DNA of 31,346 bases from a virus. The notes under the pieces are model-generated. The model saw only the letters and a program-made list of their open reading frames with translations. It was not told where the DNA came from and made no database searches. The DNA lies in the IMG/VR virus record IMGVR_UViG_3300033552_000002, positions 64,001 to 95,346 of that record. One strand, 5' to 3'. The translations under genes were made by a program, and so were the position numbers. Below are positions 9,124 through 27,949 of this stretch, piece by piece (position 1 is the first letter of the stretch; each line of letters begins with the position of its first letter).

Positions 9124-9516
9124 GGGGATGACTGGTTTTGACAGTTTGCACGCTTTTATACAATTCAGCTCAGAGAGATAACTGATTAAAACTAAGGTGA
9201 ATCATTTTAAATGACAAACAAACCGAGAATGCCCAAGTACAAGCTAACATGAATGCGGTAAATAACATCTTAAATGGTGTTGTTGCTTTGTTCTCTACTT
9301 CAGAAGAAGTGGAATTAGCTGTGGCTGCCTAAGCCAAAGAATTAGGTTTTATGATTATATTTTTTATACTGGTTTCCTTATTCCTAAAATAAGGTGGTGG
9401 TAGTCAACTATTTAGTAGGCCCTTTGTCTAACTTAAAGACTTTAAATAAAAGTAAGCTGTAAAAAATTGTGTAATTGAAGTAATCTTGGACCCGAGTTCG
9501 ATTCTCGGCATCTCCA
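9124..9516 (+). ncRNA. ssrA: tmRNA (ssrA), phage-encoded, with a long tag frame
   Basis: tmRNA releases stalled ribosomes by acting first as an alanyl-tRNA and then as a short mRNA that adds a degradation tag. The 5' end GGGGATGACTGGTTTTGACA is the classic tmRNA start. The 3' end has a T-arm, CCGAG-TTCGATT-CTCGG (9492-9508), followed by CATCTCC. GGGGATG (9124-9130) pairs with CATCTCC (9509-9515) as a 7-bp acceptor with one G-U. The discriminator is A and CCA is not encoded. The tag frame ends GAA GTG GAA TTA GCT GTG GCT GCC TAA (stop 9330-9332), giving EVELAVAA, a typical Ala-Ala degron end. The same frame is open back to a TGA at 9198-9200, so the tag may be about 39-43 residues, far longer than usual. 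The resume codon is not certain; GAC at 9213 lies about 90 nt from the 5' end. Confidence 0.93.
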
Positions 9517-9901
9517 CAATATGTACACCCAGCACTTAATAAAGATTTTAGGTTAATTTGCTGATACCTAGACGGATAAAAAGAGTGTCTTTAAAAGCCT
9601 GAAAATGATAGCAAATAATCAAGTAAGGAAAGAAGGTAGTTAAGAAATGTGAGCATTGCAAGGCAATATCAGTGAAGCTACTGGTTGAAGTGGGTAATAT
9701 TACAAAAATGGAAACGTTCTTATTTTTAACGTAATTACAAAGTTGGCACTTTGTACAAAACAAGTAAGATTTTAAATCTTACATAATGTAATTGGAAAAA
9801 CATAATCTCCGTATAAGTGCCCTATAATGTTTTTATTGTTAATTATGATTTGTTGTAAAATCAAAAAAATGTATAGGTTTGACCATTTACCTGTACAACA
9901 T
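9517..9901 (+). other. Noncoding hairpin-rich spacer between tmRNA and tRNA
   Basis: No gene on either strand is convincing. Clear hairpins are ACAAAGT-TGGC-ACTTTGT (about 9737-9754), the near-palindrome GTAAGATTT-T-AAATCTTAC (about 9763-9781) and TGTATAGGT with ACCTGTACA (about 9870-9897), immediately before the tRNA. A structured RNA or the 3' trailer of the tmRNA precursor is possible. Confidence 0.4.
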
Positions 9902-9978
9902 GGAGAGATTAGCTAAAATCTGGTAGAGCAAAAGATGTTAAAATCTTTGGTGTGTGGGTTCAAATCCCACTCTCTCTA
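9902..9978 (+). tRNA. tRNA-like gene, probably tRNA-Asn(GTT), with atypical anticodon loop
   Basis: The acceptor GGAGAGA (9902-9908) pairs with TCTCTCT (9971-9977, one G-U), and the discriminator is A. The D-arm region contains GCT...GGTAGAGC. The T-arm is GTGGG-TTCAAAT-CCCAC. The anticodon stem AAAGA pairs with TCTTT around an 8-nt loop TGTTAAAA, one base more than the normal seven; U33-GTT-AA fits Asn if one A is extra. The acceptor-to-D linker is 3 nt instead of 2. CCA is not encoded. It is either a functional but unusual tRNA, a frameshift-suppressor type, or a decaying copy. Confidence 0.75.
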
Positions 9979-10276
9979 CACAAATTGTCTAGATTCTAAG
10001 AAGTCCATCCCTTAAAAGACTTAAACATAGTTTTTAACTTTGTAGTGTGCTTAATGAGGTCCAACTGATTTGAAATTTTTAGACTTTGGGGGCAGTAAAT
10101 AGTAACAGTAGCTATTTAATTATACTATTCATACTCTGTTGAGTCACTGTAAAAAAGCTGTCCTTTTGAAATTAATAAAAAGCATAACGAGAAACAAAAC
10201 TAAGGAAAAATAGTAAGCAGGTTTTTATGCTTTCTTGCATTACTATTATCCAAAAAAACATTTAAATTAAAACATT
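9979..10276 (+). other. Leader region upstream of the replication operon
   Basis: There is no gene. A hairpin AATAGTAA-GCA (10209-10219) pairs with TGC-A-TTACTATT (10236-10247) just before the ATG at 10277, and AATAGT/ACTATT pairs near 10098 and 10125. This is the likely leader and promoter region of the replication module, but I cannot find a copy of the 23-nt element here, so a different promoter class may be used. Confidence 0.45.
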
Positions 10277-21984: not shown

Positions 21985-22713
21985 ATGAACCCTTTAGATC
22001 ACTTTCATGCTTCTTGGAAACCCTTATTTGGGTTGCTACATCAAGATTCTTTAGCAGAACTTAGTGCAAATATTTTGCCTAACTGCGTATATTACCCACA
22101 TAAAGAAAACATCTTTAGAGTTTTCAGAATGCCTTTAAACAAAATTAAGGTAGTTATTTTAGGTCAAGACCCTTATCATGGTCCAGGTCAAGCAAATGGT
22201 TTAGCTTTTGCAGTAAATGAGAATATTAGTACTCCACCAAGTCTAGGTATAATAGCTAGAGAACTAAGTGATGAAGGATTGAAAGATAGTCATAATTATG
22301 ACACTCCTTGGAAAACTTTAGGTCATTGGGAAGAACAAGGAATATTTTTATTAAACACTGCATTAACTGTTGAATCTACTAAACCTGGAAGTCATTTGAT
22401 ATACTGGAATGAATTTGTTAGCCAAGTAATTAAGTTTATTGCTATTAATAATCCTTGTATCTGGTTATTATGGGGTAAGAAAGCTCAATCTTACACTACA
22501 TATATACCTCATAAGACTATTTTCAATGTAAAAAACTATAGTAAAGAAACTATAGGAGGAATACCTAGTAATCCCTATTTCAATTATGTTTTAAAAGCAT
22601 CTCACCCTGCAGCAGAGTGTTATTCTACTAATGCAGGTTTCTTAGGATGTAATCACTTTCATTATGTCAATACAATCTTGATGAAAAATAATCAAGTACA
22701 AATTAATTGGTAA
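21985..22713 (+). CDS. ung: Uracil-DNA glycosylase, family 1
   Basis: A 242-residue enzyme that removes uracil from DNA. The water-activating loop is LGQDPYHGP (residues 59-67; D62 and H65). NTALTVE (124-130) gives the uracil-binding Asn124. ASHPAAECYS (205-214; H207) is the leucine-loop region in the form common in Bacteroidota, and GFLGCNHF closes the fold. All catalytic residues are present and the length is typical. The gene is directly attached to the primase gene. In a very AT-rich phage genome this enzyme protects DNA against uracil from misincorporation or deamination, or limits host uracil-containing defences; both ideas are inference. Confidence 0.95.
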   Translation: MNPLDHFHASWKPLFGLLHQDSLAELSANILPNCVYYPHKENIFRVFRMPLNKIKVVILGQDPYHGPGQANGLAFAVNENISTPPSLGIIARELSDEGLKDSHNYDTPWKTLGHWEEQGIFLLNTALTVESTKPGSHLIYWNEFVSQVIKFIAINNPCIWLLWGKKAQSYTTYIPHKTIFNVKNYSKETIGGIPSNPYFNYVLKASHPAAECYSTNAGFLGCNHFHYVNTILMKNNQVQINW

Positions 22714-22731: not shown

Positions 22732-23601
22732 ATGTCAGATTCAAATACAACACCTGCTGTTGAAAATGTTCAAGTAGCAAGAATTATTACTATTTATGCA
22801 ACAAGAGGTAATTCAGACCCTGTTGATGTTTCTTCAAATGCTGTTACTTGGGGAGAATTTATTCCTGAAGTTCAAAAAGCAGGTTATTCTATAGACAAAG
22901 TGTTATGTACTGAAGGTAACACAAGAATGGATTTAGTTAACAAATTAGCTATCCTACCTACTACAGATTTTACAATCTTTATAAGAAATAAAGAAACTAA
23001 ATCTGGTGCAGAACTAAGTTATAAAGAACTTAGAGCTGCTATTAGTGGTTTTATTGCAACTGATGGAGATGTTGCTAAAGATCACTTCAACAAAGATAAG
23101 AATTACACAACTAAAGCTACTGCTGATTTGAAAGAATTGCATGCTTCTTACAAGCCTAAACAAGCAGGTTCTGAAGAAGTAGTAGAAGTTTCTGAAGTTG
23201 TTGAAGCTTCTTTAAATGTAGCTGATATTGTTGAAACTGTTGTTCAAGCTAAAGTAGTAGTAGTTACTAATGCTGACAGAGTAGGTAAAATTTCTGCACT
23301 TCTTATTGAAATTGGAGGTAACACTGGTAACAGTGAAGTCTTAGATAGAATAGAGATGATTCAGGATGAAATAGCAGGATTAAGTAATGCTGTTGAAGAA
23401 GATTCTACTGCAACTACTACTGAAGTTCCTACTAACAATGTAGACCCTGCAGAAGAAGGTAGAGCTCAAGCAAGAGAAGAAGCAAGATTAGCTGAAGAAG
23501 CTAGTATGGCTGCTGAAAAGAAAGCTAAAGAAGAAGCTGAACAAGCTGTTAGAGCTAGAAAAGAAAGACTAGCTAAAGAAGCTAAGTTTCTAGGACTATA
23601 G
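22732..23601 (+). CDS. Ubiquitin-like beta-grasp candidate with helical C-terminus
   Basis: A 289-residue protein. Residues 15-92 (VARIITIYATRGNSDP through FTIFIRNKETKSG) run beta-beta-alpha-beta-beta and match the beta-grasp layout of the small Ub-like proteins of PRTRC-type operons (Prok_Ub family), which share the T-K-x-G end; here it reads TKSG. A second, helical region (YKELRAAISGFIATDGDVAKDHF) follows, then a long acidic linker and an Ala/Glu/Lys-rich C-terminal helix that ends KFLGL. No terminal Gly-Gly is present, so processing after the TKSG segment would be needed if it is conjugated. Its position just upstream of the E2-like, JAB and E1 genes is the main argument. The UDG gene ends 18 bases before it. 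Confidence 0.55.
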   Translation: MSDSNTTPAVENVQVARIITIYATRGNSDPVDVSSNAVTWGEFIPEVQKAGYSIDKVLCTEGNTRMDLVNKLAILPTTDFTIFIRNKETKSGAELSYKELRAAISGFIATDGDVAKDHFNKDKNYTTKATADLKELHASYKPKQAGSEEVVEVSEVVEASLNVADIVETVVQAKVVVVTNADRVGKISALLIEIGGNTGNSEVLDRIEMIQDEIAGLSNAVEEDSTATTTEVPTNNVDPAEEGRAQAREEARLAEEASMAAEKKAKEEAEQAVRARKERLAKEAKFLGL

Positions 23602-23623
23602 TTTTTATTTTATTTATAAATTT

Positions 23624-23660
23624 AAGTGAGAGCAGAAGTGTTCTCACTTTTTTATTTTTT
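23624..23660 (+). terminator. Terminator after the Ub-like gene
   Basis: AAGTGAGA (23624-23631) pairs with TCTCACTT (23642-23649) and is followed by TTTTATTTTTTTT. The Ub-like gene can thus be expressed at a higher level than the downstream enzymes, as expected for a substrate. Confidence 0.85.
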
Positions 23661-23666
23661 TTAATT

Positions 23667-24848
23667 ATGAATTTAACTTCAAATAAAGATTATATAGATT
23701 CCTATACACCATTAGATAGAATTATACATTCAGCTAGATTGCTTTCTTTAACGAAAAGTAAAAAGTGGCTTAATAAGCTGATAGATACAGGTAAAGTTAT
23801 TACTCACGGAGATTCATCAATAACTACTCCTGAAAGAAAAGAAAACTTTAAAGTTTTTATTAGCATCATGGTAGATGGTTTTAATAGAAGATATGGAAAT
23901 GACTGGGATATTCATATAGAAAAATATGGAACAAAATATAAAATAGATTTTTTTACTGTTTTTCCTGTTATTAAAATTTCTAACTCAACTGATTTAGAGC
24001 ATACTATTACAGATTTAATTGTGTCATATCCTATTGGTCTTATGAATTCACAGATATTTTATATTAAAAGAATACGAGGAACTAGAACAAGTCTTTTTAG
24101 GAAAGAACTTGATGCTTCATATTGTCATAGTCATTTAACTAAAAACACAGCTTTATGTATTATGTCAGAGCCTTTTAGTTTAAAAGATTTTTGTATAGGG
24201 TATGGTGATTTATCCATTTTAGAATCTACTTTACGAGATAATTTTACAGTTAGAGCTTTAGAAGGATTTCTTTATGAAGTAGATGCTACATTAAGATGGG
24301 AAAGTCTTTCTGGTTCACCCTACGTTTATATTAGAAATATAAATCCTTCTACACAGATAGCATGTGTACCTAGCAATACTGATAGAGATATTTTTTTAGA
24401 AGATAGAATGAAGTCTGATATACCTTTAACATATTACATTGCTGACAATACTTATAAGATTAAAGCAGATGATGTATTTGAAAATTTTGTCAAAGACAGT
24501 ATATTAAACGTTCCTTTTCTTAAAGATAATTTATTTAATAATGTCTTATGTATCTATAATGCTGAAAGTAAGAATTATTACAGACCCAATAGTGAAGCTC
24601 TTCAAAAACAACCTATTCCCCAAGTTTTATATGGTAGTGAAAGAGCTTACATGATTTACAATGGTCAGAAAAAATACATTAATATCAAAGAAGATGTAAA
24701 AACTTTGACTGAAGTTCCACTAGAAAATTATATTGTTCACCCTCAATTTTTAAAAAATGTACACACCTCCCTTGAAAGCATACTCAAAACCAAAGTCATT
24801 AGACATAGTGCAATTGCCAAGTATCGTGCCCTTGAACATATCTCTTAA
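23667..24848 (+). CDS. E2-like conjugating enzyme candidate
   Basis: A 393-residue protein between the Ub-like gene and the JAB/E1 pair. A helical N-terminus (1-60) is followed by a three- to four-stranded sheet (FKVFISIMVDGF, YKIDFFTVFPVIKIS, HTITDLIVSYPIG, SQIFYIKRI). Next come RGTRTSLFRKELDA, then YCHSHL (152-157) and FCIGYG (175-180, C176). The sheet followed by a histidine motif and a cysteine before a glycine resembles E2 enzymes, where HPN precedes the catalytic Cys; the spacing here is longer. The C-terminal 190 residues are unassigned. The last 92 bases overlap the JAB gene in another frame. The assignment is inference from order and context. Confidence 0.5.
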   Translation: MNLTSNKDYIDSYTPLDRIIHSARLLSLTKSKKWLNKLIDTGKVITHGDSSITTPERKENFKVFISIMVDGFNRRYGNDWDIHIEKYGTKYKIDFFTVFPVIKISNSTDLEHTITDLIVSYPIGLMNSQIFYIKRIRGTRTSLFRKELDASYCHSHLTKNTALCIMSEPFSLKDFCIGYGDLSILESTLRDNFTVRALEGFLYEVDATLRWESLSGSPYVYIRNINPSTQIACVPSNTDRDIFLEDRMKSDIPLTYYIADNTYKIKADDVFENFVKDSILNVPFLKDNLFNNVLCIYNAESKNYYRPNSEALQKQPIPQVLYGSERAYMIYNGQKKYINIKEDVKTLTEVPLENYIVHPQFLKNVHTSLESILKTKVIRHSAIAKYRALEHIS

Positions 24849-25935
24849 AATTCTTCATAAAATACAGTACTTGTGTAAGAGTATTCCAAAAGTAGAATGG
24901 TCAGGAGTTTTATTTTACTCTGTAATAGGAAGTATTAAAGACCCTTCTACCTTTAAAATTGAAATAGAAGACATTTTACCTTTAGATGTAGGTACTCAGA
25001 CTTTTACTTCTTATGATCTAGATGATAGGTTTATTGATTACCTTATGGAAGACCCTAAGAGAATGAAATATAAAGTAGGTCATATTCATAGCCATAATGT
25101 AATGAATGTATTCTTTTCCCATACAGATATGGAAGAATTAAATGATAGTTGTCCTGCTTACAATTACTATCTTTCTCTTATAGTTAACAATTACATGGAA
25201 ATGACAGCTAAAGTAGCTTTTATATCTAATGCTAGTGCCACTATACAAAAAGTAGATTATTTCTCTTTAGATGAAGCAGGAAAACCTTATGCTATGGAGC
25301 AGAAAGATTTTACTTTTGAAAAAGAAAAAATGTATGTTTACAATTGTGGTATTACAGTACCTAAAATAGACATTATTGTAGAAGAAAGTTTTGCTGATAA
25401 AGTAAAAAAAATTCTTATTCCCAAGCCTGTAATTAAACCTGTGGTAGTTCCTACTAAACATGTTGCTGGGAAATCTCCACACATGCCTTTAACAGTAAAT
25501 AATAAACCTGATATTAATTCTAAATTTAAAGATTTCTTTAATGGAGTTGACTTTCAGACTTTAGATACTTTAGAAGATGAAGAAGAAGAGGATGACTATG
25601 AAGAAAAAGCAGATAAGTTACAGATTTTTACAACTTCTTTGTTTAGTAATTCTACTCAACCTTTAGCTGATGAATCATTAGAAGATGCTTTACTAGCTCT
25701 CTTAGATTCTGAAGTAGAACCTTTAGATATAGCTCAAAAAGCATTATTAGCTTATGCTGAAACTTATTTTGCTATGTTTCCAGAAAATGATGACACAGAA
25801 TTTATTATTGATTGTTATGAAGTACTAGATTTACTTTATGATCTTCCTAATACAATGACTGTAATGATTAACCCTACCATTAAAGTAATAGAACTAATGG
25901 TAAAAACTTTTGAAAAAGATGCAAGAACAGTTTAA
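24757..25935 (+). CDS. JAMM/JAB metalloprotease (deubiquitinase-like)
   Basis: A 392-residue protein. The catalytic JAMM signature is complete: Glu47 in KVEWSGVLF, then HIHSH (109-113), seven residues, Ser121 and Asp124 (motif E...HxHx7SxxD). JAB proteins of bacterial Ub-like operons cleave or mature the Ub-like protein. The domain covers about residues 25-160; a middle linker (IPKPVIKPVVVPTKHVAGKS) and a very acidic segment (DEEEEDDYEEK) lead to a C-terminal helical domain (residues 295-392). The ATG at 24757 has a good A-rich context (TTTTTAAAAAATG), so the 92-base overlap with the E2-like gene looks real. The start of the E1 gene overlaps its end. Confidence 0.88.
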   Translation: MYTPPLKAYSKPKSLDIVQLPSIVPLNISLKILHKIQYLCKSIPKVEWSGVLFYSVIGSIKDPSTFKIEIEDILPLDVGTQTFTSYDLDDRFIDYLMEDPKRMKYKVGHIHSHNVMNVFFSHTDMEELNDSCPAYNYYLSLIVNNYMEMTAKVAFISNASATIQKVDYFSLDEAGKPYAMEQKDFTFEKEKMYVYNCGITVPKIDIIVEESFADKVKKILIPKPVIKPVVVPTKHVAGKSPHMPLTVNNKPDINSKFKDFFNGVDFQTLDTLEDEEEEDDYEEKADKLQIFTTSLFSNSTQPLADESLEDALLALLDSEVEPLDIAQKALLAYAETYFAMFPENDDTEFIIDCYEVLDLLYDLPNTMTVMINPTIKVIELMVKTFEKDARTV

Positions 25936-26596
25936 TAGATTTAAAGATGCTGCCTGGTTTCCTAAAGATAAGGAATCTGTTATGATTGGTGGAGCTGGTG
26001 GAATTGGTTCATGGTTAACTTTTTTTCTAGCCAGAATTGGTTTTAGCCCTATTGTGTATGATTATGATACAATTGAAGAGCACAATCTTGGTGGACAATT
26101 ATTTAGAAAGGAAGATGTAAACAAACTTAAAGTATTGGCTTTAGCTGATATAACTAGTTCTTTCTGTAATACTCAGATTACTACCTTTGCTCAAAAAATA
26201 GATTTAAATTCTCCTACTCATTATTTCATGTTTTCAGCTTTTGACAATATGTTAGCTAGAAAAGAAGCTTTTGAAGTATGGAAAAGGTCTATTCCTAATT
26301 GTCCTGTAACTCCTATCTTTATTGATGGTAGATTAGAATTAGAACAATTACAAATATTTGCTGTAACACCAGACAGAATTGCTGAGTATGAGACTTACCT
26401 GTTTGATGATAGTCAAGTTGAAGATTTACCATGTACCTTGAAACAATCTTCACATACAGCAGCTATGATTGCTAGTCACATGGTTGGTATTTTTACTAAT
26501 CATATTGCCAATTTGTATATGAGAAGAAATCTTAGGAGTGTACCTTTTTATTATGAATTCTATACTCCAATGACATTAACTACTTTAAATAATTAG
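25919..26596 (+). CDS. E1/ThiF-type Ub-like activating enzyme
   Basis: A 225-residue adenylyltransferase, full length for a ThiF/MoeB-type E1. The nucleotide-binding loop is GGAGGIG (residues 24-30). YDYDTIEEHNLGGQLFR (47-63) carries the Asp, Asn, Gln and Arg of the adenylation site, K71 is a candidate ATP-contact lysine, and FDNMLAR (108-114) matches the D-N-x-x-x-R motif. EDLPCTLKQ (168-176) supplies Cys172, in the same place as the catalytic Cys-Thr pair of canonical E1s, so thioester transfer to an E2 is possible. I chose ATG 25919 over an in-frame TTG at 25910; it overlaps the JAB gene end by 17 bases. Confidence 0.9.
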   Translation: MQEQFNRFKDAAWFPKDKESVMIGGAGGIGSWLTFFLARIGFSPIVYDYDTIEEHNLGGQLFRKEDVNKLKVLALADITSSFCNTQITTFAQKIDLNSPTHYFMFSAFDNMLARKEAFEVWKRSIPNCPVTPIFIDGRLELEQLQIFAVTPDRIAEYETYLFDDSQVEDLPCTLKQSSHTAAMIASHMVGIFTNHIANLYMRRNLRSVPFYYEFYTPMTLTTLNN

Positions 26597-26601
26597 TTTT
26601 T

Positions 26602-27375
26602 ATGGAAATAGACCCAATTATAATATCTGGAAGCTATTCAGGAAGTTATGAAATGTCTTCAGAAGGACAATCTAACCTTGTGAGTAATGATTTTTTACCT
26701 TTTATTTGTTTTCATCAATTGAGGAGATACGCAGAGTATTCTTATAATGCAGTTATTACTTACAGTAAACCTCCTAGGTCATCTGCTATTTCTAAAAGTA
26801 CTTCTAGTGCTAATATTATGAAATCATTAAATTATGGAAATGTAAGTAAATATGTTTTTACTTCTTCTACGTATTTTATTACTAAAGGTTTTATTACAGA
26901 TGATAAAGGTGATATATTATTAGCTTTAACCATTAAAAAACAATGTTATAAAGATAATCAGGAAGTTTCATCATACTTATCTGAATATGAAAGTACTTTT
27001 ACTTATGATAATTTTGTTTTGTTTATTTCAAGTGAGTTGGCAACAAATAAAAAACATTCAGTACTTTATAGAAGACTTCAAAATATTTATTTAAATGACT
27101 GCTATGAAAAAGGAATGGAAGTAAGATTCTTACCTTCTTCTGTAATAGAAAAAAATACCTTTGCAGTTCCATTTAAACTAAGATTTAATTCTGTTACTGA
27201 ATTAGATTTTCATCTTAGAAATGAAGTCAAATCTTTCTTTAGAGTGTCAGAAGAAACTAAACTACATATTGATATACCACCTATTAGTATAGTAGAAACT
27301 TCTTATGAAGTTGATCCTTATCTTGAGGAGCTTCCACTAAGTGTAGACTCTGATACTATAGAATTAGATTTTTAA
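26602..27375 (+). CDS. Unknown protein linked to the Ub-like cassette, 257 aa
   Basis: A soluble protein starting 5 bases after the E1 stop. It contains LPFICFHQLRRYAEYSYNAV (about 32-51), a Ser/Thr-rich stretch (RSSAISKSTSSANIM), a beta-rich middle (KYVFTSSTYFITKGFI) and an acidic C-terminal tail (DPYLEELPLSVDSDTIELDF). There is no metal-binding, nucleotide-binding or cysteine motif. It does not look like the known E2-like PRTRC B proteins, which carry a conserved Cys-x-Gly. Its place at the end of the cassette suggests a substrate, adaptor or regulator. Confidence 0.7.
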   Translation: MEIDPIIISGSYSGSYEMSSEGQSNLVSNDFLPFICFHQLRRYAEYSYNAVITYSKPPRSSAISKSTSSANIMKSLNYGNVSKYVFTSSTYFITKGFITDDKGDILLALTIKKQCYKDNQEVSSYLSEYESTFTYDNFVLFISSELATNKKHSVLYRRLQNIYLNDCYEKGMEVRFLPSSVIEKNTFAVPFKLRFNSVTELDFHLRNEVKSFFRVSEETKLHIDIPPISIVETSYEVDPYLEELPLSVDSDTIELDF

Positions 27376-27430
27376 TATAATAAAGGTATTGTAAGTTTAT
27401 AATTTGTTAATAAGTAAAACAATTACTTAC

Positions 27431-27949
27431 ATGGGAATAGGAAAGACAAATAAGACAATGGGAAGCAATGCAGAAAAAATGTACTCTAAGTTATTTAGAG
27501 ATATAGGATTTAAGCATTGTATTCCCTCTCGTCATATTAGCAGCCAGCATGATAATGCTAAAATAGATTTAATGAATTTACCCTTTAATGTACAAGTTAA
27601 AGCTGGTAAACAAACCAATATGAATCCTGGGAAGGAGTTGCTAAGTATGCAACATTGTATTGGACTTATGTTCCCTACTGGACATGAAAATGCAAGTAAA
27701 CCTAATATATTGCTCCACTATAAGACAATAGAAAAAGAGCAAAATAGGTTGCCTGAAAATGAGATAGTTTATATGTCATTACAACAATTTGATTATTGGA
27801 GAAATAAAGGTTCAAAAATAGAATATCTTAGTATGAAAGAATTCAAGTTTGATCTTAATTCTGAGTTTAAAACTATTGTGTGTGTGACTTTAGAAGTTTT
27901 TATTAAAGAAATCATATCAAAACACTATCACAATGGTATTTATAACTAA
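27431..27949 (+). CDS. PD-(D/E)XK-like nuclease candidate, possibly Holliday junction resolvase-like
   Basis: A 172-residue protein. The core reads KIDLMNLPFNVQVKAGK (residues 44-60): Asp46, a short strand, then Gln55-Val-Lys57, matching the PD-(D/E)XK pattern with Gln at the second acidic site, as in several Holliday junction resolvases. GSNAEKMYSKLFRD (11-24) at the N-terminus fits the first helix of this fold. I chose ATG 27431 because a TTG start at 27404 has a weak context; ATG 27458 is also possible. It overlaps the next nuclease gene by 17 bases. The role is inferred to be replication or recombination intermediate cleavage. Confidence 0.65.
   Translation: MGIGKTNKTMGSNAEKMYSKLFRDIGFKHCIPSRHISSQHDNAKIDLMNLPFNVQVKAGKQTNMNPGKELLSMQHCIGLMFPTGHENASKPNILLHYKTIEKEQNRLPENEIVYMSLQQFDYWRNKGSKIEYLSMKEFKFDLNSEFKTIVCVTLEVFIKEIISKHYHNGIYN

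Follow-up and report, generated by a model that had tools for sequence, protein, structure and literature searches.

Bacteria use ubiquitin-like conjugation against phages. Whether their viruses own such a cascade themselves is the question raised by a locus in a 95 kb virus, in which four consecutive plus-strand genes (positions 22732-26596 of the window, i.e., the whole stretch of 31,346 nucleotides analysed here) encode a ubiquitin-like precursor, an E2 candidate, a JAB protease and an E1. An earlier note, written from the DNA letters, had claimed a complete conjugation cassette at this place, and all four open reading frames were found there on the plus strand. We consider a phage-borne ubiquitin-like conjugation module with a counter-defence role the best explanation overall, and a reasonably probable one. 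If true, a whole cascade owned by a phage would show that viruses of bacteria run ubiquitin-like chemistry too. A full-text search of open-access papers, with subscription papers outside its coverage, found none that joins crAss-like phages with ubiquitin. New are the separate phage lineage, the all-or-none retention of the genes, a modifier with KSG followed by a tail of variable length, and the alternation of the cassette with rIIAB.

The cassette and its phage

The cassette and the genes at its borders comprise the following features:

21985-22713, plus strand: uracil-DNA glycosylase (UDG), slot border outside the cassette (Pfam UDG and NCBIfam PRK05254.1-5 above cut-off)
22732-23601, plus strand: predicted ubiquitin-like modifier precursor, 289 aa (beta-grasp 17-86, TKSG 89-92, tail 93-289; phrog_15560)
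23005-23007, plus strand: codon of G92, predicted C-terminus of the mature modifier (sole invariant column, 88 homologues)
23667-24848, plus strand: E2-like conjugating enzyme candidate, 393 aa (AlphaFold2 topology, invariant residues)
24192-24194, plus strand: codon of C176, candidate catalytic cysteine of the E2 (86/86 orthologues)
24757-25935, plus strand: JAB/JAMM metalloprotease, 392 aa (JAMM residues 98/98, Prok-JAB 87/98)
25910-26596, plus strand: E1/ThiF-type activating enzyme, 228 aa (Pfam ThiF, UBA5 profile match)
26432-26434, plus strand: codon of C175, candidate catalytic cysteine of the E1, in PCTLKQ (80/80 orthologues)
26602-27375, plus strand: fifth cassette gene, fast-evolving, phrog_15446 (ORF position after E1, family membership)
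27404-27949, plus strand: RusA-like/unknown gene, other slot border, outside the cassette (phrog_15993; same neighbour in rIIAB-bearing relatives)

The first 92 nt of the JAB gene are also the last 92 nt of the E2 gene. In agreement with the crAss-like affiliation claimed before, the MCP, TerL and portal proteins of the record match those of crAss001 (E 1e-36, 3e-36 and 4e-42, respectively), with 27-28% identity in the main matched stretches. The portal match, G000:C1:56205-57641 on the virus's own genome and outside the window, contains one in-frame TAA, for which a frameshift, an insert or a sequencing error is possible. By its E1, the closest cultured relative is Flavobacterium phage FpV4 (67.6%). 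GenBank labels the E1 'thiamine biosynthesis protein ThiF', in one record 'E1 enzyme family protein'; for crAss001, whose set comprises gp79-gp75, it describes gp77 as a protein with a 'metalloprotease domain'. The Ub and E2 partners have the label 'hypothetical' there.

Elsewhere in the window, at 9124-9519 on the plus strand, there is an Rfam tmRNA match of 66.1 bits (gathering threshold 47), in which a candidate frame for the tag closes with ...ELAVAA-stop. A tRNA-like gene (9902-9979) adjoins this match, and ARAGORN did not call a tmRNA at 9124-9519. A tmRNA carried by a phage is unusual.

Activating enzyme and protease

Judged from sequence, the E1 and the JAB protease are firmly identified. 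The E1 carries GGAGGIGS, D53, N59, Q63, K74, D112 and C175, and K74, D112 and C175 are invariant in 80/80 orthologues. It scores 49 bits against Pfam ThiF (PF00899, cut-off 28.1), while the best solved relatives of its profile are UBA5 (E 9e-14, the best PDB match), MccB and the SUMO E1. The adenylation motifs and the cysteine of the Cys-Thr pair described in the earlier note hold, but the residue is C175 and not C172, a number that had been counted from an internal ATG at 25919. For the protease, a JAMM site with all metal ligands had been proposed, and all five residues of E47 plus H111-x-H113-x7-S121-x2-D124 are invariant in 98/98 members. Prok-JAB (PF14464) was matched by 87 of these 98 (best 1.4e-7), with the window JAB alone scoring below the Pfam cut-off; a PDB search with the JAB profile gave helical-bundle designs only, against the C-terminal part. 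Since the catalytic residues are kept across the orthologue sets, their presence in the window proteins is not due to chance.

In some loci, inserts of about 1 kb split JAB or E1 (L046, 5983-7085; L123, 9759-10750; L153, 8222-9313; and L154). Rfam gave no intron match that would confirm group I introns as the cause in the JAB of L046 and the E1 of L123 and L153; the inserts are likely homing elements or introns.

A predicted ubiquitin-like modifier and its tail

The 22732 product is a well-supported ubiquitin-like modifier on the evidence of its AlphaFold2 model. The model comprises strands 17-23 and 31-35, helix 40-49, strands 57-61 and 80-86 and a flexible KSG, with pLDDT > 90 across most of residues 20-80. 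Foldseek related it with probability 1.00 to UBX domains, archaeal ubiquitin and SUMO/ISG15-type proteins, and the top matches having a local fit were Ub-fold domains; a PDB sequence search with the Ub profile gave designed helical proteins and noise only. G92 of the [TV]KSG motif is the only invariant column among the homologues (88/88). Both a predicted beta-grasp fold and the conserved C-terminal glycine were thus found, the latter presumably being exposed by processing. The earlier reading of this protein as a beta-grasp substrate with TKSG, for which structure prediction had been proposed as a check, is thereby upheld.

At least one residue follows G92, and a JAB is present, in 88/88 phage cassettes. 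Tail lengths are 1-252 residues; three homologues terminate 1, 3 and 4 residues past the glycine. In two homologues the tail domain has SAP-like matches, SAP being a DNA-binding motif. An rIIAB-bearing phage (L358) retains only this tail domain, as a separate gene for a 160-aa protein (L358:8448-8930) beside rIIA-rIIB that contains two copies of it (SAP/HeH-like, ...GKNYTxxST..L). This gene had appeared to encode a Ub protein and was rejected as such, as it has the tail domain only, without beta-grasp or KSG. The occurrence of the tail domain as a separate protein suggests that the modifier tail can stand as a protein by itself.

Plasmid and prophage loci of the PRTRC type offer a comparison, since their modifier has a conserved KG near its end. 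A tail follows the KG in 62 of 66 such loci with JAB versus 0 of 22 without (Fisher 5e-17). On the tree, this link corresponds to 3-5 independent changes, too few for a sign test to reach 0.05; random pairings join tail and JAB in 2.8 of 3, and the opposite never occurs. With so few independent changes, the correlation is corroboration and not proof. The phage cassettes follow the same rule, JAB and tail both being present throughout. Among the PRTRC-type loci (L166-L177, L188-L267), the modifier of the JAB-less ones is encoded with KG as its last residues, or LG in one case.

Linkage and distribution

Profile searches of IMG/VR yielded 186 relatives of the E1 and 184 of the JAB, and 80 loci were kept from each. 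The order Ub-E2-JAB-E1 on one strand was seen in 146/146 loci having a single full copy of each gene, a count that exceeds the number of independent phages because a single contig is in part represented by several overlapping loci. Separation of the four genes in close homologues, named in the earlier note as an argument against its reading, did not occur. Departures from the order came from gene copies that were truncated, split or duplicated and from a Xanthomonas jumbo phage that has E1 alone; the E2/JAB gene overlap had a median of 103 nt across loci. As these linkage counts begin from a cassette gene, we used the primase as anchor instead: 31 loci had all four genes, 7 had none and 0 had a subset.

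The cassette extends to a fifth gene, missed in the earlier note, which is conserved and lies directly downstream of E1. An ORF directly follows E1 in 148/162 loci, and of 105 distinct ORFs at this place a minimum of 72 form one family. In nearly all loci the cassette is flanked by primase/UDG and RusA-like/exonuclease genes. Among GenBank phages, the cassette occurs in Steigviridae, in the FpV group of Flavobacterium phages and in relatives; crAss-like phages sharing the capsid gene (e.g., cr10, cr50 and cr118) are absent among the E1 matches listed. Across 84,980 bacterial and archaeal genomes, the E1 profile found two close relatives only, a 12.3 kb contig with all four genes (L179) and a 3.7 kb contig with E1 only (L180). 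Both are short metagenome-bin contigs, so that no host-chromosome version was found. Xanthomonas jumbo phages of about 228 kb encode a related E1 (L005:5947-6630) with no recognisable E2, JAB or Ub adjoining; its neighbours are an 892-aa Cys-rich protein and topoisomerase genes.

Exchange with rIIA-rIIB

In 7/7 relatives without the cassette, its slot is occupied by rIIA-rIIB of the T4 type (RIIA, phrog_612, 222 bits in L282; RIIB, phrog_609, 95 bits). The flanks are kept in these relatives, i.e., primase and UDG on one side and, in most, RusA-like and exonuclease genes on the other. The crAss-like phages with rIIA-rIIB homologues at the slot are L282, L284, L290, L291, L293, L295, L299 and L346-L358. 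Among 17 viral loci anchored on rIIA, the pair (the first gene only in cut contigs) lies beside the same primase/UDG in 16, and none of the 17 contains E2, JAB or E1. Correspondingly, rIIA was found in 0/27 long cassette-bearing records (positive controls detected, 2/2) and E1 in 0/9 long rIIA-bearing records (positive control detected). The slot hence alternates between two modules, one of which is a classic counter-defence locus. The function of rIIAB has been a problem since early phage genetics, and to our knowledge it is poorly understood beyond T4. In T4, rIIAB confers resistance to the RexAB abortive-infection system (PMC8594841). Given a conjugation cascade, we therefore lean toward counter-defence as its role, since rIIA-rIIB takes the same slot, each module is absent where the other is present and T4 rIIAB acts against RexAB. 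The swap thus lends support to the counter-defence role suggested in the earlier note, by an argument of guilt by position.

The location among replication genes also fits a role in replication. The cascade might regulate the phage's own replication and recombination proteins, in analogy to PCNA ubiquitination, instead of serving counter-defence. The primase/UDG and RusA-like/exonuclease genes that enclose the cassette in nearly all loci and the SAP-like matches in the tails of two homologues point in this direction, as does the conservation of E1, which exceeds that of the primase. However, the seven close relatives without the cassette keep the replication genes and carry rIIA-rIIB, and the E2 candidate evolves faster than the replication proteins that it would contact. 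We thus regard this explanation as rather unlikely. The rates are best seen in pairs with 60-75% E1 identity, where median identities are 66 for E1, 52 for primase, 51 for UDG and 47 for exonuclease, followed by 43 for JAB, 39 for Ub, 32 for E2 and 29 for the fifth gene. Likewise, the window and L007 share 91% identity in E1 and 83% in primase versus 47% in E2 and 48% in the fifth gene. E1 is hence better conserved than the replication genes, and E2 and the fifth gene diverge fastest, as expected if these proteins face a changing partner. The putative catalytic residues of E2 are unchanged despite this divergence, which fits a fixed chemistry with changing partners.

The E2-like candidate

The 23667 product may be considered E2-like by its modelled topology, its cysteine and its gene position. 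The AlphaFold2 model (pLDDT 90.9) shows the order a-b-b-b-b-Cys-a-a, i.e., a helix, four strands, C176 and two helices. S155, H156, C176 and G178 are invariant in 86/86 orthologues, as are E212, S213 and G216 in the alignment, and a Y-x-H-S-H motif (152-156) precedes the cysteine. The histidine motif and C176 noticed earlier are thus confirmed within an E2-like order, but no significant match to an E2 fold accompanies them: in Foldseek searches of PDB and BFVD, the protein's own family apart, no E2 reached significance, and the weak, non-significant matches include Tsg101 UEV, UFC1, a CBASS E2 and a viral E2. None of 82 members matched a Pfam E2 family, and a PDB sequence search with the E2 profile gave designed helical proteins and noise only. 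In an hhalign comparison with PRTRC protein B, the sole segment pairs FCIG with VCLG and is not significant alone. One cassette has two tandem E2-candidate genes (L139:6058-8131), the adjoining modifier ending in SGEVV.

The 23667 product might hence not be an E2 at all, and the locus could serve peptide modification or processing, with an MccB-type E1 adenylating the SG terminus and a JAB that only trims. Such a function would agree with the missing Pfam and significant PDB matches and with MccB among the relatives of the E1 profile. It is nevertheless improbable, given an invariant cysteine within an E2-like order of strands and helices, a gene at the position of PRTRC protein B, itself an E2 relative, and weak fold matches that include four E2-type proteins. 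Least probable is a sulfur carrier system like ThiS/MoaD/Urm1, in which a thiocarboxylate formed by E1 on the Ub-like protein would serve to thiolate tRNA or nucleotides: ThiF/MoeB models match the E1 and its GenBank name refers to thiamine biosynthesis, but it reaches 52 bits versus a ThiF equivalog cut-off of 159, rhodanese, thiazole-synthesis and thiolase genes were not seen in the conserved block, and neither the invariant cysteine of the E2 candidate nor a JAB is ever missing.

Proposed mechanism

The four-gene set most probably is a conjugation cascade, because all four proteins have invariant catalytic residues, the modifier model is a beta-grasp, the genes are kept all or none and JAB goes with a tail. 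In this cascade the 22732 product would be made as a precursor, from which JAB may cut after Ser-Gly92 to free the C-terminus of the modifier. The E1 would then adenylate Gly92, load the modifier on C175 and pass it to C176 of the E2-like protein, which could attach it to target lysines; JAB might also remove it again. The target may be chosen by the fast-evolving E2 together with the fifth protein, possibly a target adaptor. We favour the view that in these phages the module plays the part which rIIA-rIIB has in close relatives; its target would be a host protein linked to abortive infection or to another defence. Possible as well, if on the doubtful side, is the more specific proposal of a counter-defence cascade interchangeable with rIIA-rIIB whose modifier is a fusion, JAB releasing an independent, possibly DNA-binding tail.

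From the terminal K-S-G, a Ser-Gly remnant (+144.05 Da) is predicted on target lysines after trypsin, so that proteomes already recorded from infected cells could be screened for it without delay. The cassette lineages include the cultured phages crAss001 (Bacteroides intestinalis) and FpV4 (Flavobacterium psychrophilum), and the swap would offer a handle on rIIAB function.

Comparison with known systems

Sets of E1, E2, JAB and Ub, including PRTRC-like operons, were described in 2006 by Iyer, Burroughs and Aravind (PMC1779556). PRTRC, by its description their fourth operon type, 6d, occurs on plasmids and integrative elements, and sets of this type are also found in prophages and phages, e.g., BgVeeders33. 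That such operons hold the same roles, as stated in the earlier note, proved correct, and the order is also the same: Ub (C), E2 (B), JAB (A) and E1 (ThiF). Both modifiers have a conserved glycine and a variable tail, in KG for PRTRC and in KSG for the phage. Sequence kinship is detectable for E1 (98.7% in profile-profile comparison) and weakly for JAB (A, 72%, around HSH...FFS..D), whereas B (1.7%) and C (0.4%) reveal no sequence link for E2 or Ub. In contrast to PRTRC, the phage E1 scores 30.8 bits against a TIGR03736 cut-off of 144.75, E2 (393 aa) and JAB (392 aa) are far longer proteins and a fifth gene is added. The NCBIfam models of PRTRC A, B and C did not match the phage cassette proteins, and no ParB-family, protein E or protein F partner was found among the window proteins scanned; the cassette is therefore not classed as PRTRC.

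The E1 also resembles the E1 half of E1-E2 fusions such as CBASS Cap2 (PADLOC E1-E2, 2.5e-7; NCBIfam 6A-MBL cap2_3, 7.5e-8), and the JAB shares the deconjugase logic of type II CBASS Cap3 and bacterial E1-E2-JAB operons. Unlike in type II CBASS, the phage E1 (228 aa) has no E2 domain, E1 and E2 are separate and the genes belong to a virus and not to a host. Neither a cyclase nor an effector was seen among the cassette neighbours scanned, which sets the cassette apart from type II CBASS by definition. The Bil defence genes A-B-C-D (Ub, E2, JAB, E1) would resemble the phage order. A resemblance to the UFM1 system lies in UBA5 as best solved match of the E1 profile and in UFC1 among the weak E2 fold matches; UFM1 also is processed to a single terminal Gly. 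This relation is distant, with weak fold matches only, and no E3 was identified in the phage cassette. Lambda-type tail assembly proteins I and K, a Ub-like and a JAB/NlpC protein, are another phage case in which a C-terminally extended Ub-like protein is paired with a JAB (PMC1779556); they differ by their structural-gene context without E1/E2, the cassette lying in a replication block. Finally, a modifier fused to an independent protein, as may be the case for the phage tail, would have its analogy in eukaryotic ubiquitin-ribosomal protein fusions.
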